From the NCBI GenBank assembly GCA_040752595.1, contig JBFMGX010000047.1, positions 1 through 49,834 on the forward strand: DNA of 49,834 bases, given 5' to 3'. Below are positions 20,188-49,834 of the stretch, one piece after another. The notes under the pieces are model-generated. The model had not been told where the DNA came from. It searched no databases and was given only the letters and a program-made list of their open reading frames with translations. The position numbers were made by a program, and so were the translations under genes. This DNA is from Candidatus Zixiibacteriota bacterium. Its GTDB lineage: Bacteria > Zixibacteria > MSB-5A5 > WJJR01. How positions within the stretch are numbered: the first letter of the stretch is position 1; each line of letters begins with the position of its first letter.

Positions 20188-22725
20188 TCAATCCCCCAAC
20201 GGTACCGCTCCGGCGCGGCGCCGCGTGACCGGAAGCGGCTGAGCGCCCACAGGCGGCGCATCCAGATATGTCATCAAACGATACTCGAACTGGCTGATGG
20301 CGTTTTGAATGGGGTTTGGAATCATGGCAGTGTAGCCCATTGTCTTGCGCTCGAATGCATGGGAGTTGGCGTAGGCAATCACCTTGCCTTGGCCGACATG
20401 GGCGATGGCACAACTGACCGAACCATCCGGGAGGGTGACCAGCGGTTCGCCCCCGGTAATCCGGCCGCCGCCCTGCCACAATGAGGCCTCCGCCGGCATG
20501 TAGACCCTCCCTTGCGATGGCACCGGGCGAAGGTCGACGGTCAGACCGAACTGCGACAGCAGAGGGGCGGAGGTCGACGCGTGATTCGTTGGATCATCGA
20601 ACACGTAGAGGGTGCCCCCGCCCGTCACGAATTCCCTCAATCGCTCCAGTGCGGCGCTGCTGAATGGTATCACAGGATCGATGATGATCTGGCCGCCCGG
20701 CTGCGCCAGCGCGTCCTTCAAGGTCGGCCACTTGCGCGGGACCACACCGACCCGCGACGCCCACAGGTAGAAGGTGCTGAAATCCTTGTCGGGCTCGCGC
20801 GCCAGCCGCAGTTCCGGCAGGAAGAAGCGGGAATGCTCCGCCTCGAAATTGAGCTGAGCGAATGGCGAGTGCGGCTTCGGCAGCGTGTAGTTGCCTTGAT
20901 TGATCGACTCGACCCATCGCGCGGTCAGGCCGAACACGATACACCCCACCGCGGCCAACCACGCCCAACCTTCCTTCCCAAGACCGGCGGCGGCGACGAT
21001 CGCAACGAGGAAGGCCACAACCGCAAAGAGGAATGTCACAATCCGCCAATAAGGGAACGGGTCATAGCGGTTGACATATTCGGCGAGCATCAATGCCAGC
21101 TCCGGCTTGCCGGGAATGAAAACGAAGAAGTTCGACCACAACGTCGAATCGGGGAAGGTCACGATCCGTCCCTTCCCACAGCGCGTGGAGAGCGATAAGA
21201 GGAACTGGCCGAAGCGATACCCAGTGTGGCCCGAGCGCTCGGGGAAGAAATTGCGCTGCGTGTAGTCGGCGGGCAATGTCTTCAGTTGCATCCCGGTTAT
21301 GATGGAACGCGCCGACAGATCGGCCCAGATTGAACAGGGACCCCCAAAGAGAAAATCCGGCGGCATGTTGGCTCGCACGGGATGGGGGAGCAGCGACGGC
21401 ATGTGTTCCAGGTTCAGATCGCCGGTCTTGAGCTCATAAACGATGTCGGGGATGAAACGGATGCCGAAGCGACCGGCGACGGGATTGAGGAATGTCCCGT
21501 AGCCGAAAACGTTGGTGTGCTCGCCGATCAGAATCAGCCCGCCGCCTTTCTTCACCCAATCGTAGACGGCGTCGATTTCCTTCTCCGCGTACGGTTGTGT
21601 CGGCACTTTCAGCACGAGGATGTCGACATCCGCCAGCCGCTCCGGCGTCAGCGAGTCGAAGCTGCGCTCCATCTGGAAGTGCTTGCCCCAGTATTCGGCA
21701 AGGAGGTAAAAGTTGTATGTCGATTGCTGGCCGTACCAAACAGTGTCGAAGGGCATCTCCGTCCACTCCCAGTCGGAGTGGAGTTCATCGATCAACATCC
21801 GGCCCTGTTTGCGCACACCGGCGGGATGATAGGACTCATAGAATGTCCAGGCCAGCACCGCCAGCGCGGTCGCCACGACGACAACGGCGAGACGACGACC
21901 GGATCTTTCCGGCTGCGAGCGAACCGGCTTCGGTGTTTCTGTCTGGCGCCGTGTCGCCAGTCCCTGCATGAGAAACGCCACCGGCCACGCGGTCCAGGCA
22001 AAAACCCGTGGGCTCCAGAAAATGTCCGCTGTGCCGCCCTGATTGTAATCCCAGATGGCCACGGCGGCATACCGGAGCAGGGCAAACAGGCCGATCCCCA
22101 GCCCGCCGATCAGCACGGCGCGGGGTCGCACCTTTCCGGTGATGGCCAGCGCAATCAGCCCCATCCAGACCATGAGGAACACAAACAGCCCCATGTTGAC
22201 CGGAGAGGGCACGACTTCATAGAGGCGGTCAATCGCCAGCAGGTGAAGTCCATCGGACATCGCCACCGCATGGACACCGAACAGGCGCAACGCCGCGGCG
22301 ATGATCGTCGCCGGGATGGCGCACCCGTGTCCTCGTGGTCCCAGGTACACGATGTACAGGTAGTATCCGACAAGCTGCAGCAGAGCCACAGTTCCGGCCA
22401 CGAGTAGACCGTCGCCCAGCTTTGCGCCCCAACGCGTGCCACCGACCGTGGTGGCCAGGACGACCGCTCCGGCCAGGAGAAGTGCTCCGATGGCGGGAAG
22501 CTCGAACCACCAGATGGCGAAGATGGCCAGTGCCGCTCCCGCCGCCAGCGAACGGAACGGCCAGCGACGCGGCTCCGATGAATCAAACCCCGATGCGATC
22601 AGGATGAACAGCGTTCCGATGGCGGCCAGCCACCAGAATGTCGAGGGGGAAGGATCGGCGTTGGGCGGCAGAAACAACCACCCGGTCGCCCAGGCGACCG
22701 CACCCCAGATGTAGAGTCGCTTCAT
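20188..22725 (-). CDS. Large polytopic membrane protein with GATase-like (DUF4350-like) domains
   Basis: The 845-residue protein has seven or more membrane helices in its first 260 residues, then an extracytoplasmic GATase-like domain (VDILVLKVPTQPYAEKEID and VKKGGGLILIGEHTN, about 353-395). A further pair of helices follows near 560-610, then a second similar domain (PGGQIIIDPVIPFSSAALE, FVTGGGTLYVFDDPTNH, about 690-735). Such domains resemble glutamine amidotransferase folds without the catalytic cysteine, as in DUF4350 proteins. Helices around residues 141-260 have an exosortase-like layout (see findings). The start overlaps the upstream paralogue's stop by four bases (ATGA), so the two are co-translated. 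No function is assigned. Confidence 0.75.
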   Translation of the reverse strand: MKRLYIWGAVAWATGWLFLPPNADPSPSTFWWLAAIGTLFILIASGFDSSEPRRWPFRSLAAGAALAIFAIWWFELPAIGALLLAGAVVLATTVGGTRWGAKLGDGLLVAGTVALLQLVGYYLYIVYLGPRGHGCAIPATIIAAALRLFGVHAVAMSDGLHLLAIDRLYEVVPSPVNMGLFVFLMVWMGLIALAITGKVRPRAVLIGGLGIGLFALLRYAAVAIWDYNQGGTADIFWSPRVFAWTAWPVAFLMQGLATRRQTETPKPVRSQPERSGRRLAVVVVATALAVLAWTFYESYHPAGVRKQGRMLIDELHSDWEWTEMPFDTVWYGQQSTYNFYLLAEYWGKHFQMERSFDSLTPERLADVDILVLKVPTQPYAEKEIDAVYDWVKKGGGLILIGEHTNVFGYGTFLNPVAGRFGIRFIPDIVYELKTGDLNLEHMPSLLPHPVRANMPPDFLFGGPCSIWADLSARSIITGMQLKTLPADYTQRNFFPERSGHTGYRFGQFLLSLSTRCGKGRIVTFPDSTLWSNFFVFIPGKPELALMLAEYVNRYDPFPYWRIVTFLFAVVAFLVAIVAAAGLGKEGWAWLAAVGCIVFGLTARWVESINQGNYTLPKPHSPFAQLNFEAEHSRFFLPELRLAREPDKDFSTFYLWASRVGVVPRKWPTLKDALAQPGGQIIIDPVIPFSSAALERLREFVTGGGTLYVFDDPTNHASTSAPLLSQFGLTVDLRPVPSQGRVYMPAEASLWQGGGRITGGEPLVTLPDGSVSCAIAHVGQGKVIAYANSHAFERKTMGYTAMIPNPIQNAISQFEYRLMTYLDAPPVGAQPLPVTRRRAGAVPLGD

Positions 22726-25073
22726 GGGGTCGTCGCTCCGGCCGTGCGCTTCATCAGCTCGTTGAAGAAGTTGATATTGTCCATAACCACGAATTCATTC
22801 TGCCCTTCGAGATTCTCGTTGAACAGAAAGCGGGAGTCGCCGATGGCGATCAGGCCTCCCCGGCCGTGATGCACCAATTTGGCCACCGGAGTACCAAAGG
22901 CCACAATAAGCGATTCGATGCCGGCGCCCTCCCCGGAAATCGGGTAGGCATCCTTCAACTTCACCGGTGAACCGAAGGCGACACCGTCGGCGGCGCCGAA
23001 GGGGATGTTCTTATGCGTCAATCCGAAGCGCCGGAACAACTCCGCCACTTCTTCATGTGTATCCCACCCGGACGTTACTATCACCCAGCCGCCCCTGTCC
23101 ATGAATCGTTCCATCTTGTCGATTTCCTCGGAGGATACGGGTGTAGTCGGTGAGCACAAGAGGTACAGCGCGGCCTTCTCATGGGATAGGGCGTGGGCTG
23201 AGCGGACGTAACGCGGCGAAAAGCCATTGCGCATCAGGTTGTATTGCAGCCCGCCGATGGACTTCGGTTCCCACGACATGCCGTCAAACAACGAGTGATG
23301 CCCTTCATCGATCAACGCCTGCCGATAGGATCCGTCGATCCACGTGCGGTCGGCGGCACCGGGAATGGCGCTCCACAGCGAAACCGAGGCCACCGGCAAG
23401 AGCAGGGCCGCGGCCAGGAGCGCCGGCTCGCGACGGCCACTGATCGCCAGGACGGTTCCCCATATCCCGATAATGAGAAAGAGCAACCATCCGCGCCAAC
23501 GATCGAGGAACGCCGCCCAGCCACCCTTCGCCAGCCAGCGCACCGAACGGTCGATCAGCGCATGCGAACGGACAATAGTACCGTTTTGATAGGGAGAAGT
23601 ATCGCCGTGAAGGATGGCTTTACCTTTGCCCCAGTGCGCCGCCGCCACGAGAACAACGTCGCCGAGCGGCTCCCCGGGATCATAGGCGAGATTACCAAGG
23701 TATGACCGACCCTTGTTGTTCAGATCACCGGGATCGGAAAAGGCGCCGCGGCCGATGACCACCGGGTCCCCCTTCGGACCCGGTGTCACCGATGCTCCCA
23801 ACCACAACTCGGCGTCCATCACCCCCCCGGAACGCGCCAGCGGATGAAACAGGAACGACCTCGCCGAGGCCCAACTGCGCCGCAACGGCACTGCCGTGTC
23901 GAAGTTGATTTCCAGTCCGCACGGCTGCAGCAGATCATTCGTCGGATCGCGAATCGCGTCGGTCCCGGTGTGGTCGCCGAGAATCAACAGCCCGCCGCCT
24001 CCGGCCACGAAATCCCAGACCCGCTGCCGTTCCTCGGGCGAAAGCTTGTTCAGAAGATTGGCGATGATGATGACATCGACCGAATCGAGAATCTGCCCGG
24101 TCAGATCACGGTGGTAGACCTTGTGGCCGGCGGCTTCGAGGAATCGCGGGAGGAAGCCAAACATACCCCCGGAACGATCGCCATACCGGCCATGGGTGGG
24201 GACCATCTCATCGAGCGTGTTCTTGTTGAGAAACAGGACGCGAACCGGAGCGTCGGAGTAGGAGGCGGCACCCGCGACGATCACGGCGGCGACCAACCCA
24301 CCGCCCGCGGCCCAGAGCCACCGGGAGCGCCGTCCACGCCCGGGGGACAGTACCGGCGATGGTTCCGACACGGCCGTACGCTGCAATAGCGCCAGCACCA
24401 GGGCCACGAACAGGAAGTACGCGGCCGGCATGTCGAGATGCGGCGTCAGCGAAACCGGTGCCACCCGGCCGACCAGTGACTGAAGCTCCGGTGCCATCCA
24501 GATGTAGAGGATTCGTCCCGCTTCGAGCAGAACAACCGCCGCCACCGCATAGAGCCATTGCCGCGGTTTTGAGACGATCGTGATCGCGACCACACCGACG
24601 ACTCCCAGCAGCAACAGGTCGACCGCCGAGGCCGAGGGCCCCAGCGACAGGCGCACACTCATGGTCTGCGTGAGGAAATGTGTGTAGGGAAACGACCACT
24701 CCGTCAGCCAGCGGTATCCGAGCGGCAACTGGAAGAAGACGGTCCACCACAACGCGTAGAGTACTCCGGTCAGGACCAGTGCCTTCCGTTGCCCACGCAC
24801 CTCAGGCGCGGCGAAACGATCGAACACCCACACGGCGATCGTGATGAGGACAATACGGAAGACCGGATCGACCGCGGCGATGATCCCGGCCGCCAGCGCC
24901 CATGTAGACCAGCGCAACAACCAGTTGATGGCCCGATTCCATCCCGGGACTGGCGGGCAGTACCGCCACAACAGCGCCAGCAACACGCCCGTCACCAGCG
25001 AATAGATCGGTTCCCGGAAGTCGCCGAACGCGCGCGTCACGGAACCCAAGAGTGCGAGAAAGTAGAAAGTCAC
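22722..25073 (-). CDS. Large polytopic membrane protein, paralogue of its downstream neighbour
   Basis: The 783-residue protein has the same architecture: about seven N-terminal helices (to residue 280), a GATase-like domain (VDVIIIANLLNKLSPEERQRV, then FVAGGGGLLILGDHTG, about 335-375), two helices near 535-575, and a second GATase-like domain (IDKMERFMDRGGWVIVTSG, about 665-700). It is the first gene of the minus-strand run and is transcribed divergently from the cysteine-repeat proteins. The start is GTG 25073 with GAGGG six bases upstream. The glycine-rich turns (GGGGLLILGDHTG) match those of the next protein (GGGLILIGEHTN), which shows common descent. Large extracytoplasmic domains suggest work on cell-surface material. 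Confidence 0.75.
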   Translation of the reverse strand: MTFYFLALLGSVTRAFGDFREPIYSLVTGVLLALLWRYCPPVPGWNRAINWLLRWSTWALAAGIIAAVDPVFRIVLITIAVWVFDRFAAPEVRGQRKALVLTGVLYALWWTVFFQLPLGYRWLTEWSFPYTHFLTQTMSVRLSLGPSASAVDLLLLGVVGVVAITIVSKPRQWLYAVAAVVLLEAGRILYIWMAPELQSLVGRVAPVSLTPHLDMPAAYFLFVALVLALLQRTAVSEPSPVLSPGRGRRSRWLWAAGGGLVAAVIVAGAASYSDAPVRVLFLNKNTLDEMVPTHGRYGDRSGGMFGFLPRFLEAAGHKVYHRDLTGQILDSVDVIIIANLLNKLSPEERQRVWDFVAGGGGLLILGDHTGTDAIRDPTNDLLQPCGLEINFDTAVPLRRSWASARSFLFHPLARSGGVMDAELWLGASVTPGPKGDPVVIGRGAFSDPGDLNNKGRSYLGNLAYDPGEPLGDVVLVAAAHWGKGKAILHGDTSPYQNGTIVRSHALIDRSVRWLAKGGWAAFLDRWRGWLLFLIIGIWGTVLAISGRREPALLAAALLLPVASVSLWSAIPGAADRTWIDGSYRQALIDEGHHSLFDGMSWEPKSIGGLQYNLMRNGFSPRYVRSAHALSHEKAALYLLCSPTTPVSSEEIDKMERFMDRGGWVIVTSGWDTHEEVAELFRRFGLTHKNIPFGAADGVAFGSPVKLKDAYPISGEGAGIESLIVAFGTPVAKLVHHGRGGLIAIGDSRFLFNENLEGQNEFVVMDNINFFNELMKRTAGATTP

Positions 25074-25573: not shown

Positions 25574-25660
25574 TTTGACGTTATGCGGGTTCGCCGGTTC
25601 CCGTCGGCGCGCCTCTTCTTACAGGTTTACATACCAAACGTCTCTCCGCGGAGGTTGGAA

Positions 25661-27787
25661 ATGTCCATCACTCGTTCGGTTCCAAATTCGTCGCGTACAT
25701 CGCGATGTAGAAGTCGGTGTCTCTTCGGGGTGATCGCTGTCACCTCGCTCATCCTCGTCGCCGCCCATCCGGCGATGGCATCATCCGATCCGTCCCCATC
25801 GCCGCTGTTTACGCAGAGCCTCAACCAGTCGATCGCCAAGCTCGATGAAGCACCCGGCGCCGCGGTGAAATCCGCGGGTGCGGGTGCGGGTGCCGGTGTC
25901 GCCGTTCGTCCCGCCGGCGCCGACTCATTGCCGACGTTACAGGGCTTCCCGACCTGTGACGGAACGCTCACATGCACGGGATCACCCACGTGCACCGGCA
26001 CAGCGACCTGCGTCGGGACGACGACCTGCGACATCACCTGCGTTCAGCAAACCTGTCCGGGACAACAGACATGCCCCGGCACGACGACCTGTCCCGGCAG
26101 CTTCACCTGCGAAGACATGTCCACATGCCATGGTTATCCGACCTGCGAAGGCACGACGACCTGCGGGGGCGCGACGCCGACGTGTGCGGGGATGTCGACA
26201 TGCCCGGGTTACTCAACATGCCTGGGCACGGCCACGTGTGATGATCCCTGTGTGGCGACGATGCCCGGTCAAGCGACTTGCGTCGGAACATTCACCTGTG
26301 TCGGTGAGACCACCTGCCCAGGGACTACCACGTGTCCGGGAGTAGAGACTTGCCCCGGCGAAGCGACCTGCTTGGGAACCGCGACCTGCCAGAACGGTCC
26401 CACGTGCCCGTGGCAGCCGACGTCACCGGGCTATCCCACTTGTCCGGGGACGACAACCTGCGCACAGGGGCCGACATGCACCGAGATGCCCACGTGTCTC
26501 TTCGCGTATACCTGTGGCGTGGCGACGACGTGTCCGGGCTGGATCACTTGCGCCGGGCCGGGGAGCCCCACCTGCGATGGCACGGCCACCTGTAACTGGG
26601 GCACGACTTGCTCTGGGACGCCGACATGCATGGGGTCGGAAACATGTGATGTGGCCACCTGCCCCGGTGCTTTTACCTGTCCTGAAGGAACCACCTGTGC
26701 GGGCTACTATACGTGCGCCGGTGGGCCAACCTGCCATTACACCGAAACGTGCGAGGGATATTACACCTGCAAAGGATCGCCGACCTGCCCCGATGTCCAG
26801 ACCTGCCCTGGTGCCGAGACCTGCAGCGGCACAGCCACGTGCGCTGGCGCCATGACTTGCTCCGGATCATCCACATGCGCAGGAAACCAGACCTGCCCCG
26901 GCGCACCGACCTGCCGACCAGAGCTCACGTGTCCCGGATCAAGCACCTGCTCCGACATGTCTACTTGCCCCGGCTATAAGACATGCTTGGGCACGGCGAC
27001 GTGTGCCGAGGGACCAACCTGCCCGCACAATCCGACATCCCCCGGATACCCGAGCTGCGAGGGGACGACGACCTGCATTGGATCGTTCTCGTGCGAAGGT
27101 TGGGTGACCTGTCCGGGCGAATCGACCTGTCCCGGAACCCAGAGTTGCCCCGGCGCCGCGACCTGCGATGGAGCGAACACCTGCCCCGGTCACCAAACAT
27201 GTCCAGGGTTCCCGAGTTGTGGCGCGGTGACCTGCGCTCCGAATCCGACCTGTGGTGCCCCGGCGACGTGCTGGGGAGTCGCAACCTGCCCTGGCGCGGC
27301 GACCTGTCCCGGTAATGCGACTTGCGCGGCGGTCGCGACATGTCAGGGTACGCCCACCTGCAACGGACTGCCGACATGCTATCCGAATGCGACGTGCCCC
27401 GGAACGACCACGTGCCCTGGGACGGAGACGTGCGCCCCGCAGATGACCTGCGCCGGGATCGTAACCTGTGCCGGCTACAACACCTGTCCACCGCTGTGTG
27501 CTCAGATCTGTCTGTGCCCATGCCATGGCGATCCGGTGTGCGATGGAGTCCCGAACGTGCAGGATGTGGTCGCGACGGTCAATGTCGCATTCCGTGGCGC
27601 TGCACCTACATATGATCCGACTTGTGTACAGGGGAACCCGGCACAGCGCACCGATCTGAATTGTGACGGCGTTTGCACGGTGCAGGACGTGGTGCGGATG
27701 GTCAATGTGGCCTTCCGCGGCGGCGACCCGTCGATCGAGATCTGCGACCCGTGCGCCTGCAATCCCTACCCGAGCAACTGCCCGTAA
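25661..27787 (+). CDS. Secreted cysteine-hexapeptide repeat protein with dockerin-like tail (first of two)
   Basis: The 708-residue product has a signal peptide (LFGVIAVTSLILVAAHPAMA, cleaved before SSD), a short linker (SSDPSPSPLFTQSLNQSIAK) and about 85 consecutive units of the form T-C-x-G-x-x by hand count. Unit length is nearly always six, with rare five-, seven- or eight-residue units. Proline is the commonest residue after cysteine, glycine next. Two units read TSPGYP, with serine for cysteine. The protein ends in a double dockerin-like repeat (CPCHGDPVCDGVPNVQDVV and DLNCDGVCTVQDVV) and CDPC. The start at 25661 has GGAGG six bases upstream. A cysteine every six residues with adjacent threonine recalls the 12-residue, two-cysteine coil of beetle antifreeze protein, so a disulfide-laddered beta-solenoid is plausible. 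I know of no described family. Confidence 0.85.
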   Translation: MSITRSVPNSSRTSRCRSRCLFGVIAVTSLILVAAHPAMASSDPSPSPLFTQSLNQSIAKLDEAPGAAVKSAGAGAGAGVAVRPAGADSLPTLQGFPTCDGTLTCTGSPTCTGTATCVGTTTCDITCVQQTCPGQQTCPGTTTCPGSFTCEDMSTCHGYPTCEGTTTCGGATPTCAGMSTCPGYSTCLGTATCDDPCVATMPGQATCVGTFTCVGETTCPGTTTCPGVETCPGEATCLGTATCQNGPTCPWQPTSPGYPTCPGTTTCAQGPTCTEMPTCLFAYTCGVATTCPGWITCAGPGSPTCDGTATCNWGTTCSGTPTCMGSETCDVATCPGAFTCPEGTTCAGYYTCAGGPTCHYTETCEGYYTCKGSPTCPDVQTCPGAETCSGTATCAGAMTCSGSSTCAGNQTCPGAPTCRPELTCPGSSTCSDMSTCPGYKTCLGTATCAEGPTCPHNPTSPGYPSCEGTTTCIGSFSCEGWVTCPGESTCPGTQSCPGAATCDGANTCPGHQTCPGFPSCGAVTCAPNPTCGAPATCWGVATCPGAATCPGNATCAAVATCQGTPTCNGLPTCYPNATCPGTTTCPGTETCAPQMTCAGIVTCAGYNTCPPLCAQICLCPCHGDPVCDGVPNVQDVVATVNVAFRGAAPTYDPTCVQGNPAQRTDLNCDGVCTVQDVVRMVNVAFRGGDPSIEICDPCACNPYPSNCP

Positions 27788-27818
27788 ACAACTGATTGGC
27801 TCCCGCTAATCACACCTC

Positions 27819-27847
27819 AGGGGCGTCCCGAACTCCGGGACGCCCCT
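27819..27847 (+). terminator. Terminator-like hairpin after the first cysteine-repeat gene
   Basis: AGGGGCGTCCCG (27819-27830) pairs perfectly with CGGGACGCCCCT (27836-27847) across a five-base loop. It is followed by TGATCATCT, a poor T-tract. It lies 32 bases after the stop. The rest of the 393-base gap holds the second copy of the shared element and a promoter but no gene. Confidence 0.65.
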
Positions 27848-27986
27848 TGATCATCTAGCGACGGCGGCTGATGGCCACAAGCGCAACGGCGACAACACCA
27901 TATGCGACACTTCTGATCATGATTCGCCCCGGGACATCCTCCCAGTGGGGAAGGAGGCGCGTCACGTCCCGATATACCGCAGGAGG

Positions 27987-28003
27987 ATTTTGAACAATAT
28001 CTT
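27987..28003 (+). promoter_or_regulatory. Shared upstream element, copy 2
   Basis: GATTTTGAACAATATCT lies 31 bases upstream of the -35 box of the second cysteine-repeat gene. It matches the element at 25527 apart from the first base and one inserted A. Its distance to the -35 differs (31 against 2 bases), so it may be a regulator site rather than part of the core promoter. Confidence 0.45.
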
Positions 28004-28034
28004 CAACATCTATCACGTTTTTCGCATTATTCCC

Positions 28035-28063
28035 TTGACAGGATTAATCTTGTCGGCTTTTAT
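28035..28063 (+). promoter_or_regulatory. Promoter of the second cysteine-repeat gene
   Basis: A consensus TTGACA (28035-28040) and TTTTAT (28058-28063) are 17 bases apart. The leader to the ATG at 28181 would be about 110 bases. Together with the hairpin at 27819 this shows that the two repeat genes are probably separate transcripts. Confidence 0.55.
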
Positions 28064-28180
28064 GGGGTCAGGCGCGGCAGTCTTCGGCCGGTTGTGTGCC
28101 TTGTCTGAGAAACGAAGATTTTACAATTCCAGCGTCGTTTTAACGTTCCAGGACGGTCTCAAGGAACCAGGAGGCGCGCC

Positions 28181-30940
28181 ATGCCAGACCAGTGTCAGGG
28201 TGTACGAACTACCGGGCTGGCCCGATGTCGGAGTCGATGTCGCGGCCTGCTCACCGTCCTCGTTCTGTTCTCCGCACTTCTACCGCTTGTCGCCGTCCAC
28301 GCCAGTAGTGATCCGCAGCCCTCGCCGCTGTTCCAGCAGAGCCTGCAAACATCGGTGGCCCGGTTGGACGGCGAAGACCGTCCGGTTGCAACACCGGTGA
28401 AGCAGGGACCGGCGACGCCGGCTCAGCCGCCACAAATGGCCATGGCGACCCTGCCGCCGAGTTCGACCTGCGACGGCTCTGCGACCTGCAATGGTACGCC
28501 GACGTGCGACCTGAAGCCGACGTGCGACGGCACGACGACCTGCGACGGTGGTCCTGATTGCGGTCATCCGACCATGCCGGGCTTCCCGACCTGCACCGGC
28601 ACCAACACCTGCGATGGTGTCACCACTTGCCCAGGGACATCAACGTGTCCCGGGACGGTATCATGCGATGGAACCAACACGTGCGCAGCCGTCGGAACCT
28701 GTCCAGGTACGGCCTCGTGCGACGGGACCACGACCTGCCCCGGCATGTCGACCTGCGATGCTGCCGCCACATGCCACGGGGCACCTACCTGTGATGCTGC
28801 CGTGACCTGCCCCGGCACCTCGACTTGCGGTGCTGCTACCTGTCCGGGCATCAACACATGCGCTACGGCGCCGACCTGCGAGAACGTTCCGACCTGTGTG
28901 AATTCGGCCTCGTGCGACGGGACCGCCACCTGTGCCGGGACGCACACCTGCAAAGATGAAGCCACCTGTCCCGGCTACAATACCTGCGAAGGGACGCCGA
29001 CCTGCGCGGGCGCGACGACCTGCGGTGCCGCGGGGACGACCTGTCCCGGAGCGCCAACCTGCGAGGGCACGACAACGTGTAGCGCCACCTCACCGACCTG
29101 CGGCACCCAAACGACCTGCACGCAATTCCCGACCTGCACTGGGAACCAGACCTGTCAGGGCACGATAAGTTGCGCCGGGACCAGCACCTGCGCCGGGACC
29201 TTGACCTGTGCCTGGTCGAATACGTGCGATCATTCCCCAACCTGCATCGATAACAGCACCTGCGCCACGGCGACCTGTCCCGGGGCTGCGACGTGCGTTG
29301 ATGCGACGACCTGCCCCGGAACGATCACATGTCAGCAGACGACGTGCACGGGATTCGCGACCTGTCCGGGTGCGATCACCTGCTTGCAGTCGGCGACCTG
29401 TCTGCATCTGGCAACGTGTCCCGGAACGCCAACCTGCAAGGGGTCGCACACATGCGCGCCGTTCGCCACCTGCGCCGGTTCGCCGACCTGTGACGGAACC
29501 GCATCGTGCGCGGCCACCGTTGTTACCTGCGCCACACAGATCACCTGTGCGGGTTCGCTGACGTGCACAAACATCGCGACCTGCCCGGGTACGGCGACCT
29601 GCAAAGGGACATTCACCTGCAAGGCCAGCACAACGTGCTCCGGCCAGCCGACCTGTCCCAACACGCCGTCGTGCAACGGAACGACGACGTGCTGGGGGAC
29701 GGCGACCTGCCACGGCTTCCAGACCTGCACGGATGCCGCGACCTGCGTCGGCTTCGCCAGTTGCCAGGGCGCAGTGACATGCGCTCCCAGCCCGACATGC
29801 GGCACAGCAGCGTCGTGTTGGGGACTGGCCACCTGCCCCGGCCAGAGCACATGCAACGGCAACCAGACCTGCGCCGCAGCGATCTCCTGCGCCGCCGCCG
29901 ATATTGCGACCTGCGGAGCGATGGTCTCCTGTCATGGCACAGTCACCTGCCCGAGCACAGCGACCTGCCATCAGGCAACCTGCCCAGGAGCACCGACCTG
30001 TAAGGACGTGCAGACCTGTCCCGGATTCGAGACCTGTGAAGGGACAGCGACCTGCGCCGGTGCGGCCACCTGTCCGAACAATCCCACCTCGCCCGGCTAT
30101 GCGACCTGCGAGGGGACGACGACATGTCAGTTTGGGTTGCCGACCTGCGGATCGATGCAAACCTGCAGCCAGTTCCCGACCTGTCCGGGTCTCTCAACAT
30201 GCCAGCACTCGCCGAGCTGCGACGCGACCGGTGTCACGTGCGGTGGCATGGCGACCTGTAACTGGTCGAGCACCTGCCACGGTTCGCCGACATGCGTGAA
30301 CCTGCCCACGTGCACCTTCGTGACCTGCGAGGGAGCGCCCACATGCTTCGCGGCCACGACGTGCCAGGGGAACATCACCTGTGAAGGGTCCGCGACCTGT
30401 CATTACACTGAGACCTGCGACGGGCATGTGACGTGCCCCGGGACCGCGACATGCGCCGATGGTCAGACCTGTGTCGGCTTTGTCACATGTCCGGGCACCA
30501 GCAGTTGCCCCGGCTTCCAAACCTGCGCCGCCGGCGCGGTGACCTGCTTCGGCCAGGCCACCTGTCCGGGCAACCTGACCTGCGATCATGCCGCGACCTG
30601 CTGGAACATCGCCACCTGTCCGGGAGCGACGACCTGCTTCGGCACGGCTGCCTCCTGCGTCTACGTCGCGTGTAGCTGCCCGTGTCATGGCGATCCGAAC
30701 TGCGACGGGGTGCACAACGTCCAGGATGTGGTCGCCGCGGTCGGAGTCGCATTCCGCGGCCTTCCGGGAACCTGCGATGACGGTTGCCCGGCTTCGCGCA
30801 CGGATGTGAACTGCGATGGTCGGACAACGATCCAGGACGTCGTGAAGATGGTCAACGTTTCGTTCCGTGGTGCCGATCCGGCTGCTGAGTTCTGCCGACC
30901 CTGCGCCACGCCACCGCCAACGCCGCGCGAATGCCCATAG
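28181..30940 (+). CDS. Secreted cysteine-hexapeptide repeat protein with dockerin-like tail (second of two)
   Basis: The 919-residue product shares every part with its upstream paralogue: an arginine-rich leader and signal peptide (LLTVLVLFSALLPLVAVHA), the linker SSDPQPSPLFQQSLQTSVAR, the T-C-x-G-x-x array (about 121 units by hand count) and a double dockerin-like tail (CPCHGDPNCDGVHNVQDVV, DVNCDGRTTIQDVV, CRPC). Serine replaces the unit's threonine in about one in ten units. One cysteine-less rung reads TSPGYA. Blocks such as CHYTETC and CAPSPTCGTAASCWGLATC align with the first protein, so the arrays descend from a common long array rather than recent simple-repeat slippage. AGGAGG lies six bases before the ATG. 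A strong terminator follows. The function is unknown; a long, rigid surface fibre or metal/thiol-rich coat component are possibilities. Confidence 0.85.
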   Translation: MPDQCQGVRTTGLARCRSRCRGLLTVLVLFSALLPLVAVHASSDPQPSPLFQQSLQTSVARLDGEDRPVATPVKQGPATPAQPPQMAMATLPPSSTCDGSATCNGTPTCDLKPTCDGTTTCDGGPDCGHPTMPGFPTCTGTNTCDGVTTCPGTSTCPGTVSCDGTNTCAAVGTCPGTASCDGTTTCPGMSTCDAAATCHGAPTCDAAVTCPGTSTCGAATCPGINTCATAPTCENVPTCVNSASCDGTATCAGTHTCKDEATCPGYNTCEGTPTCAGATTCGAAGTTCPGAPTCEGTTTCSATSPTCGTQTTCTQFPTCTGNQTCQGTISCAGTSTCAGTLTCAWSNTCDHSPTCIDNSTCATATCPGAATCVDATTCPGTITCQQTTCTGFATCPGAITCLQSATCLHLATCPGTPTCKGSHTCAPFATCAGSPTCDGTASCAATVVTCATQITCAGSLTCTNIATCPGTATCKGTFTCKASTTCSGQPTCPNTPSCNGTTTCWGTATCHGFQTCTDAATCVGFASCQGAVTCAPSPTCGTAASCWGLATCPGQSTCNGNQTCAAAISCAAADIATCGAMVSCHGTVTCPSTATCHQATCPGAPTCKDVQTCPGFETCEGTATCAGAATCPNNPTSPGYATCEGTTTCQFGLPTCGSMQTCSQFPTCPGLSTCQHSPSCDATGVTCGGMATCNWSSTCHGSPTCVNLPTCTFVTCEGAPTCFAATTCQGNITCEGSATCHYTETCDGHVTCPGTATCADGQTCVGFVTCPGTSSCPGFQTCAAGAVTCFGQATCPGNLTCDHAATCWNIATCPGATTCFGTAASCVYVACSCPCHGDPNCDGVHNVQDVVAAVGVAFRGLPGTCDDGCPASRTDVNCDGRTTIQDVVKMVNVSFRGADPAAEFCRPCATPPPTPRECP

Positions 30941-32790: not shown

Positions 32791-32819
32791 TTGACGTCGA
32801 CCCATTTCGTATTCATTTT
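32791..32819 (+). promoter_or_regulatory. Candidate promoter of the dockerin-tagged hydrolase gene
   Basis: TTGACG (32791-32796) and CATTTT (32814-32819) are separated by 17 bases. The leader would be about 58 bases to the ATG at 32884. Confidence 0.4.
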
Positions 32820-32883
32820 GTCATCGGTGGCGGTGGCATGCGCTCGCACCGCTCCAGTTGTCCATCCATCCATGGAGTCATCC

Positions 32884-34989
32884 ATGCTTACAGACGTTCG
32901 ACATTTGGTGCCGGCGCTGGGGTGCGCCGGAGTATTGCTTCTGGGCGCCACGGCCGCAGGGGCATTGCAGAGTGCATCGCCACCGGCTCTGCCCCCGGTC
33001 TTTCTCACGATCGTCAGCCATAATGAGGAGCCGCTTGGCGGCCGCCCTGATTACACTGCGGACATCAATTACTACCTTCAGAATCGGAATCTGGTGAAGC
33101 TGCTGGCGGAGACGATTCGCAGCCGCAACGCCGCCTTCAACTTCCAATCCGATTGGAACTACCTGAAGGCGGTGGCGCAGTTCGACACCGGTGTCGTGAC
33201 GGCCAATACCAATGGCAAGAACATTGTCCGTTGGATGAAGGAGGACCTGGGGGTCGAGATCGACTCACACGCCCACGAAACGCAGTACAACTATGCCGAT
33301 GTCGCCTACCTGATCGAGCAGCTTGGCATTACTCCATCCAAGAACGTGGGCGGTTTTCTCTACAATCCTCCCGACAATCCACAGGGTTGGGAACAGCACG
33401 AGAACGGCATCAACGGCTGGATCCATCCGTCATATTTCTGGCGGGCCGACCATCTCTGGGGTGCGGCGACATTTCAGCATCAGGGAGAGGACGACCGTTC
33501 CTCGGGAATCTGGCGGCCGCAGGACCGCTACAGTTTCTACACCGATGACCCCAATCGACGGCTTCTGTACATCGGCGGCGGCTGTGGCGGCCAGCCGGGG
33601 CTGGTGCAACTGCTCGATGACATCGAGGCGGAACGTGTCCCGGCTGACGGGTTCTACACCGCGAATCTGATGATGATTCAGGATTGGATGACGCCCCAGA
33701 GCATCGTTGCGCTGGGCAGCTTCATCGACTCGCTGGCACCGGTGGTGGCATCGGGCCGGATCATCTGGTCAACGTTGACACAGACCGCGCAGACGTGGCG
33801 AACGCAGTATATGGCGCAACCGTTTCGCTACGACTGTGTGCCCGACACCGTTGGCACCTACACGATTGAAACGTTGGAGACATGGGTTGCCGCCCCCAAT
33901 GGCAACCTTCTCTACACGCGGATCGTGCAGCCGATTTCCGCGCTCTATCCGGGGCAGCGTTTCCCATCCCTGATCGCCGTCCCCGGCGGAACCGGACCGG
34001 GGGCGCCATTGGCCGACAATGCCGGCTATCGAGATCTCGCCGCCGGCGGCTTCGTGGTGGTCGTTTTCAATCCCGAGGGCCGCGGCACCGGCCAGCCCGG
34101 CAACCTACTGAGTGAGGGAGTCGAGGACTGCAACGGCTGGACGCATCAGGATGATCTGAAGGCGATCGTGGAACATACCGCCGGCCTCGCGAATGTCGAT
34201 CGCGGCAACATCGGTGTCGAGACATCATCATTCGGCATCGCCATTGGCGCCGGGGCGTTGGGACGCTACCCCGAGCTCCCGGTCGCCTATCTGGTCGACC
34301 AGGAGGGGCCGCACGACAACCGCGTGATCACGTTCTACGATGCCGGGCATGAGGTCGCCGTCTGCGGCCACCTCAGCACGGTCACAGACCCATCGCCTGA
34401 GAATGTCGCCTACTGGTCCGAGCGCGAGGCGGTGCGTTACATCGGCGATTATCCCGGCTACTACCTGCGCATGCAGGCCGAGGATGATCACGCGCAGGAT
34501 TCCGGCTACTTCCGTCATGCAATTGAGATGATCGACTCCGCCACGTCATCGTCCGCCGGCGGAGGGGGAGTGGCCTGCTGGACACGGATGAACGGCGACG
34601 ACATGGGAAACCCGGTCAATACGGTCTACCAATTCAGCGATACATCACAGTACCCCAACTGGGTTTCCGGACGACTCAATCCCGATCATCCCGATTTGCA
34701 CTTCACGTACATCCGGGAGATGGCGGAGCTGACAGCAACTTTCAGTTGCCGTTGCCACGGCGACCCGCAGTGCGACAGCGTGACCAACATCACTGATGTC
34801 GTCAAGACCGTCGACGTCGCCTTTCGCGGTACCGATCCCACCTTGGACCCGAATCCCGCCTGCGGCCTGCCGGTGACAGACGTCGACTGCAATGGGTCGA
34901 CCGACGTCATCGACGTTGTGCGCATCGTCGCTGTGGCCTTCCGGGGGTCCAGCCCATGGACCATGGTCTGCCGGCCTTGCACGCAGTAG
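32884..34989 (+). CDS. Secreted deacetylase-like/alpha-beta hydrolase fusion with dockerin-like tail
   Basis: The 701-residue product starts with a signal peptide (LVPALGCAGVLLLGATAAGA). Its first half resembles polysaccharide-deacetylase-type (NodB-fold) proteins: FLTIVSHNEEP, then EIDSHAHETQYNYADV and a long wedge of aromatic residues. The second half (from about 345) is alpha/beta hydrolase-like: FVVVVFNPEGRGTGQPG, a probable nucleophile serine in ETSSFGIAIG, and VAYLVDQEGPHDN. The last 80 residues are the double dockerin-like repeat (CRCHGDPQCDSVTNITDVV, DVDCNGSTDVIDVV, CRPC). The start at 32884 has GGAG six bases upstream. The assignments are from motif impressions, the tail is certain. 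A role in extracellular carbohydrate or ester processing is suggested. Confidence 0.7.
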   Translation: MLTDVRHLVPALGCAGVLLLGATAAGALQSASPPALPPVFLTIVSHNEEPLGGRPDYTADINYYLQNRNLVKLLAETIRSRNAAFNFQSDWNYLKAVAQFDTGVVTANTNGKNIVRWMKEDLGVEIDSHAHETQYNYADVAYLIEQLGITPSKNVGGFLYNPPDNPQGWEQHENGINGWIHPSYFWRADHLWGAATFQHQGEDDRSSGIWRPQDRYSFYTDDPNRRLLYIGGGCGGQPGLVQLLDDIEAERVPADGFYTANLMMIQDWMTPQSIVALGSFIDSLAPVVASGRIIWSTLTQTAQTWRTQYMAQPFRYDCVPDTVGTYTIETLETWVAAPNGNLLYTRIVQPISALYPGQRFPSLIAVPGGTGPGAPLADNAGYRDLAAGGFVVVVFNPEGRGTGQPGNLLSEGVEDCNGWTHQDDLKAIVEHTAGLANVDRGNIGVETSSFGIAIGAGALGRYPELPVAYLVDQEGPHDNRVITFYDAGHEVAVCGHLSTVTDPSPENVAYWSEREAVRYIGDYPGYYLRMQAEDDHAQDSGYFRHAIEMIDSATSSSAGGGGVACWTRMNGDDMGNPVNTVYQFSDTSQYPNWVSGRLNPDHPDLHFTYIREMAELTATFSCRCHGDPQCDSVTNITDVVKTVDVAFRGTDPTLDPNPACGLPVTDVDCNGSTDVIDVVRIVAVAFRGSSPWTMVCRPCTQ

Positions 34990-49330: not shown

Positions 49331-49600
49331 CACGGGCGAGGTCGTGCCACCGACCTTGGGGCCCGTTGAAAAACCCCGGCACGTACACAACACGACGCGA
49401 ATCCACGTGGTCACAGAATCGTGAGTTTGTGGACGCCACGCGTCTCGCGTGACGCCCTGGCGCCAGCCGAGGGCGGCTGGCGTCCACACCAATGCTCTTT
49501 CAAGAGGCCCCTTGGTCGGGGACGGATCGGCAACGGTTGTCTGCCCGCGACCTGTGATCGCGGTCCTCTGACGATGCCGTCCATCCGCGATCAGAGATCG

Positions 49601-49834
49601 CGGTTTCTCAATGGGTCCCTTTCATCCGCGATCAGAGATCGCGGCCACACGACTGCCACAGTTGTGGCAACCCGCCACCTCGCCCTTGTTGCGTGCCCGC
49701 GACCTGTGATCGCGGTTTCTCAATGGGTCCCTTTCATCCGCGATCAGAGATCGCGGCCACACGACTGCCACAGTTGTGGCAACCCGCCACCTCGCCCTTG
49801 TTGCGTGCCCGCGATCTGTGATCGCGGTTTCTCA
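49601..49834. repeat. Tandem array of a 112-bp repeat reaching the window edge
   Basis: The sequence starting CGGTTTCTCA at 49601 recurs at 49713 and 49825, which gives two full periods of 112 bases and the start of a third. Each unit contains CCGCGATC-AGA-GATCGCGG, a GCCACAGTTGTGGC palindrome and CCGCGACC-TGT-GATCGCGG. A degenerate further copy lies at 49540-49600. The array continues beyond the window. No gene is in this part. Confidence 0.85.

Follow-up and report, generated by a model that had tools for sequence, protein, structure and literature searches.

The window analysed here (a stretch of 49,834 nucleotides from a Candidatus Zixiibacteriota bacterium) encodes two adjacent proteins with long arrays of the six-residue unit T-C-x-G-x-x. 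These proteins and their relatives form a family that has no name and is found in one order of Zixibacteriota; its members are probably structural proteins that are exported and attached to the surface. The novelty lies in the variant: Cys-rich structural surface proteins are a kind already known. Members of the family share a selected repeat register and an N-terminal motif and carry exchangeable C-terminal anchors, and a dockerin-like tail is predicted for the pair in the window. As to what these proteins form, we see about an even chance that they are a surface-attached structural polymer or matrix cross-linked through cysteine, with the fold of the array left unspecified.

Two array genes and their hexad register

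Both open reading frames are real and lie on the forward strand (Table 1), and both products have predicted signal peptides as judged by reading of the sequence, in agreement with the claim of an earlier note on this DNA that two neighbouring exported array proteins are encoded here. The two proteins have the same domain order: a signal peptide, a 24-residue segment of the form DPxPSPLFxxSLxxSIxxF, a Pro/Ala-rich linker, the array and a C-terminal domain of approximately 90 residues. This last domain (dockerin-like) and the SPLF helix are family features that are absent from the earlier note.

Table 1. Coordinates of the two array genes and their parts in the window
Feature	Position	Strand	Remarks
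Array protein 1 (P0001)	25661..27787	+	708 aa from the ATG at 25661; ORF 25583-27787, 734 aa
Array protein 1, predicted signal peptide (...VIAVTSLILVAAHPAMA)	25661..25780	+	Sequence reading: basic n-region, hydrophobic stretch, AxA
Array protein 1, N-terminal motif SPLFxxSLxxSIxxF with flanks; predicted helix, mature residues 7-22	25784..25855	+	
T-C-x-G-x-x array 1	25952..27520	+	Residues 124-646; 84 [TS]C units, 87 Cys
Array protein 1, dockerin-like C-terminal domain (predicted)	27515..27784	+	Two DxNxDG-type loops
Array protein 2 (P0002)	28181..30940	+	919 aa
Array protein 2, predicted signal peptide (...LLTVLVLFSALLPLVAVHAS)	28181..28306	+	Sequence reading
Array protein 2, conserved N-terminal motif (DPQPSPLFQQSLQTSVARLDGEDR)	28310..28381	+	Motif profile match, E 3.5e-13
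T-C-x-G-x-x array 2	28466..30682	+	Residues 96-834; 121 [TS]C units, 122 Cys
Array protein 2, dockerin-like C-terminal domain (predicted)	30677..30937	+	Modelled on the homologous protein 1 tail

There are 84 Thr/Ser-Cys dipeptides in P0001 and 121 in P0002, and the next unit follows exactly six residues on for 73 and 103 of these, respectively. The units had earlier been counted as about 85 and 121 and called consecutive; the counts stand, but the hexads do not follow one another strictly, since approximately 10–15% of the units have a length of 4, 5, 7 or 8 residues. The reported spacing of one cysteine every six residues is nonetheless far from random: C-x5-C pairs number 74 in P0001 and 104 in P0002, compared to means of 14.2 and 19.9 and maxima of 27 and 34 in 5000 shuffles. 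The hexads are never identical at the DNA level (0/2628 pairs in P0001 and 0/5253 in P0002), and Thr, Cys and Gly are encoded with varying third bases in both genes. These results indicate that the register is kept by selection on the protein and not by recent duplication, and they rule out chance or a DNA-repeat artefact as the origin of the arrays.

The same register is seen across the family. Cysteine occupies 1815 of the 1846 register positions that have Cys on both sides, and Thr or Ser precedes 1818 of 1822 array cysteines, making this pair near-invariant. Over 2017 hexads, the residue following Cys (+1) is P in 25%, A in 18%, D in 9% and T in 4.7%; G is found at +2 in 71%; +3 is mostly small (T, S or A), with bulky residues (F, Y, M, Q or E) also occurring; and +4 is P in 22%. 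Proline is thus common on either side of the Thr-Cys pair and alike on both faces. The arrays are acidic, contain approximately 16.5% Cys and almost lack Lys and Arg. Neither of the two arrays in the window contains a CxxC or heme motif, and each has a single CxC.

Terminal modules and distribution of the family

The SPLF segment is common to nearly every complete array protein, including a member from Bacillota. In 20 sequences S5, P6, L7, S11 and L12 are invariant, and a profile of the motif has strong matches in 9/9 genomes of the window's order. AlphaFold2 predicts a helix here (mature residues 7-22 in the model of whole mature protein 1) with moderate confidence. The link between motif and array is not a strict one, as at least one protein (L267) carries the former and lacks the latter. 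Other variants were also observed. Frameshifts or errors of assembly are indicated at L128, L177 and L178, where a change of frame separates the motif from the array or one part of the array from another. Orthologous 1307-aa proteins at L179 (3832-7755) and L184 (3182-7105) combine the motif with a short hexad array, the L184 copy having thrombospondin type 3 repeats and a weak dockerin match in addition. At L126, L127, L128, L268 and L269 an extra Cys-rich domain (C-[IVF]-Y-[QE]-L-x-C ... CLxWxxVxC) lies between motif and array.

At the other end of the protein, both tails in the window contain paired DxNxDG-type loops, a duplication of calcium-loop segments read from sequence, and a dockerin fold is predicted: AlphaFold2 models the protein 1 tail at pLDDT 91-95, and all PDB matches listed for this model by Foldseek are dockerin entries, with E above 0.001 and TM-scores to the target of 0.64-0.74 (ranks 1-16 of the matches listed). 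The tails resemble type I dockerins (PF00404) in loops and predicted fold, and cohesin domains are encoded in the window's genome. They differ from type I dockerins in having extra conserved cysteines and a longer linker and in falling below the Pfam cut-off: Dockerin_1 does not match the window's own tails and is borderline in relatives (23.0 in L178 and 22.8 in L184, against a cut-off of 22.9).

A Cys-containing dockerin-like tail of this kind is found on approximately 80 exported proteins in the window's genome. The same genome has three cohesin matches over the cut-off and 30 Por_Secre_tail matches (22 over the cut-off), and cohesin reading frames on two of its contigs (C13 and C4) end, in frame, in a T9SS-type tail. 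The anchor itself differs across the family: most members have a dockerin-like one (a Dockerin_1 tail in L178), the L174 array protein has Por_Secre_tail (28.6 bits; cut-off 27) and the Bacillota protein, L048, has SLH domains (72.8 bits; cut-off 20.8). An array that is constant while its ends are exchanged between dockerin-like, T9SS sorting and SLH domains points to surface attachment.

The arrays match no model in Pfam, NCBIfam or PADLOC, in keeping with the earlier statement that no named family is known. Elsewhere in the window's genome, substantial arrays occur at three loci (C4, C15 and C38) and a short one at C36. Of the 132 genomes searched in the phylum Zixibacteriota, 8 have relatives, and these 8 belong to the window's order, whose one remaining genome (the ninth, 88% complete) has none. 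Array genes number several per genome, and a single frame contains as many as 208 exact hexads. A pattern scan of GTDB contigs gave at least 116 matches, which in most cases are not relatives but simple repeats in the DNA (18-bp or TC-rich). The real relatives among the approximately 116 matches listed are L023 (Candidatus Zixiibacteriota DeMMO3_3) and L092 (bacterium WY4.bin59), which are two of the 8 genomes above (the match places are identical), and L048, a Bacillota MAG whose protein has the SPLF motif and a short array as well as its SLH domains. In the order to which L048 belongs (113 genomes), no second array protein was found among the matches listed, nearly all of which cover just the SLH half at the C terminus. 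Matches to plasmids and phages by tblastn are of low identity and cover part of the array, none being near full length. Literature searches on Zixibacteria with dockerin and on repeats with Cys at every sixth residue returned nothing relevant.

Array fold, cysteine state and gene neighbourhood

The earlier note had suggested that the arrays form a disulfide-laddered beta-solenoid, possibly 20-30 nm long if two units make one coil, on the strength of a spacing that matches the coil of the Tenebrio antifreeze protein TmAFP. In its regular form this would be a rod with two hexads per 12-residue coil and a Cys-Cys bridge inside each coil. Insect antifreeze proteins of this family are right-handed beta-helices with internal disulfides. 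The TmAFP consensus is TCTxSxNCxxAx, with a disulfide between positions 2 and 8 (PMC8038014). The likeness in Cys spacing and preceding Thr holds, and the TmAFP structure 1EZG is matched weakly (phmmer E 0.05; profile E 0.003). G at +2 and the mostly small residue at +3 would fit a turn and an inward-facing side chain, the cysteine totals are even (see below), and the near-invariant T/S-C pair is more easily explained by a regular structure. The conservation of this pair favours some regular structure in the array.

The predicted models and the statistics of the hexads argue against the rod itself. For 24 hexads, run with 12 natural array segments, AlphaFold2 gave a mean pLDDT of 33 and no strands, and in whole mature protein 1, run with 12 homologues, the array has a pLDDT of approximately 30 and no secondary structure; with an input of 12 sequences, shallow repetitive alignments may mislead either way. 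A predicted structure lacking a regular solenoid had been named beforehand as an outcome that would speak against the proposal. The well-predicted tail serves as an internal positive control in the whole-protein model, and AlphaFold2 is reported to assign solenoids with confidence to perfect repeats even when these carry no meaning (PMC11795689), which makes the absence of structure in the array informative. The hexads are also statistically equivalent: over all 2017, no side-chain property shows the correlation between hexad n and n+2 or n+3 that 12-residue or 18-residue coils would produce. Runs of Cys between breaks show no excess of even lengths (129 even, 128 odd), proline occurs on both faces, bulky residues are found at +3, and units that are not six residues long are common. 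A regular beta-solenoid is possible but not supported, and we regard the disulfide-laddered rod as doubtful. Two other repeat folds were rejected: a PDB profile match to the collagen-like fibril 8zxl is a low-complexity PG match in which no stretch passes alone, and the left-handed beta-helix hexapeptide of LpxA type has no Pfam match and calls for an aliphatic residue at i with G at i+1, whereas G in the arrays stands at +2 from Cys.

Mature cysteine totals are even in 16/19 complete Zixibacteriota members (p 0.002, an optimistic value as homologues are not independent). The Bacillota member has 25 Cys, and among other dockerin-tailed exported proteins of the window's genome 23/37 have even totals, which is not significant (p 0.09). 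We found no match to DSBA, Thioredoxin_4 or VKOR in the window's genome, nor to Thioredoxin_4 or VKOR in 9 genomes of the order, where controls were detected; the oxidase search consisted of these three models. There is therefore no known enzyme, among those searched, to form disulfides in the arrays, and an unusual oxidase is possible. The even totals favour paired cysteines, and the absence of DsbA-type and VKOR genes makes the disulfide state puzzling. Among bacteria studied to date, those with an excess of even Cys counts in their exported proteins also carry DsbA together with DsbB or VKOR, and obligate anaerobes tend to keep cysteines out of exported proteins (PMC12453122). The window's order appears to break this published rule.

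Should the cysteines instead be reduced, wholly or in part, the array could act as a surface thiol sponge for metals or reactive sulfur species. The missing oxidases and a Cys-rich, acidic composition almost devoid of Lys and Arg are consistent with such a role. Metallothioneins have dense clusters of CxC and CxxC, to which the near absence of these motifs here bears no likeness, and metal binding requires no invariance of Thr/Ser-Cys. Given also the even Cys totals and the lack of any metal-handling gene among the neighbours examined, we consider a sponge improbable.

The array genes adjoin, and are divergent from, a pair of genes for large membrane proteins (DUF4350 and ABC_transp_aux, GIFT-like; 20188-25073, reverse strand). 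The divergent arrangement with a DUF4350-family gene recurs at L181, again with both members of the pair, and at L184, with one member; no conserved enzyme partner was found at the other array loci. Also next to the arrays, at 32791-34989 (+), an exported protein with a dockerin-like tail weakly resembles the dipeptidyl-peptidase Dpp5. A scan for promoters and terminators yielded sites no commoner than in shuffles. The window ends (49545-49834) in a tandem palindromic repeat with periods of 41 and 112 bases (CCGCGATC...GATCGCGG).

This neighbourhood bears on the idea of a thioether-modified peptide (lanthipeptide- or radical-SAM-like) with the arrays as its precursors, for which a Thr/Ser stands beside Cys throughout and the N-terminal motif could serve as a recognition leader. 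That motif sits behind a signal peptide in an exported chain, the flanking proteins scanned in the window (DUF4350, ABM, LOG-type, M16 and M14) include no modification enzyme, and the DUF4350-family gene is the only recurring conserved neighbour, all of which makes such a precursor very improbable.

A candidate surface polymer and its likenesses

We favour a surface-attached structural polymer, which would most likely arise in four steps. The signal peptide would take the chain across the inner membrane. The dockerin-like tail, a predicted fold, would then keep it at the surface, probably through a protein with a cohesin domain; candidate partners are the cohesin proteins encoded in the genome, among them the two with a T9SS-type sorting tail in frame. 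Approximately 90-120 array cysteines would be oxidised to disulfides within and between chains, a step that we infer from the even Cys totals and the near-invariance of the cysteines, and the product would be a long, tough polymer or coat rich in proline and glycine turns. Finally, and speculatively, the amphipathic N-terminal helix may pair chains or touch another component of the envelope.

With respect to sequence, the closest likeness is to TmAFP, which shares Cys at every sixth residue, Thr before Cys, a small residue three past Cys, tandem units and a signal peptide. The differences are substantial: there are 84-121 units here, compared to 7-11 coils in TmAFP-type proteins; the hexads are all equivalent, whereas TmAFP has two alternating half-coils (TCTxSx and NCxxAx); the arrays are bacterial and proline-rich, with no TCT ice face and no predicted solenoid; and an N-terminal helix and a C-terminal anchor are added. 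That the array is an ice-binding or antifreeze protein is scarcely credible, resting as it would on Cys spacing, with the TCT ice-binding triplet not conserved, Thr rare after Cys (which bears out the earlier caution that ice binding is not implied), no solenoid predicted and no Pfam match to the insect antifreeze family (PF02420-type) at E <= 0.1 for either protein.

Other likenesses are functional. CdeC and CdeM of Clostridioides difficile (PMC7677010) and CsxA (PMC7333573) are Cys-rich spore-surface proteins linked to self-assembly and disulfides. They resemble the array proteins by function only, both kinds being Cys-rich proteins of bacterial outer layers. Spore proteins of the CdeC/CsxA type are made in the mother cell, whereas the array proteins have signal peptides, surface anchors and a strict hexad. 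Long arrays with fixed Cys spacing also occur in extracellular coats, in CREMP of avian eggshell membranes and SP75 of slime-mould spore coats (PMC3068167). These eukaryotic modules are C-X4-C-X5-C-X8-C, in contrast to C-X5-C throughout the arrays, and eggshell membranes also use lysine-derived cross-links, whereas Lys and Arg are nearly absent here.

The family is missing from the libraries searched and can be recognized by a fingerprint of SPLF helix, T-C-x-G hexads and exchangeable anchor. Its members would rank among the most Cys-dense bacterial proteins and, if cross-linked, the arrays would be a natural protein material. With at most approximately 100-180 Cys per protein and no DsbA-type or VKOR gene found, such a cell coat may point to an undescribed route of oxidative folding or to a new surface material of unpaired thiols, a suggestion that we put forward tentatively. 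As this order appears to break the published rule on exported cysteines and the DsbA pathway, it would allow one to test directly how bacteria deal with disulfides, or with stable thiols, by means other than the known pathways.
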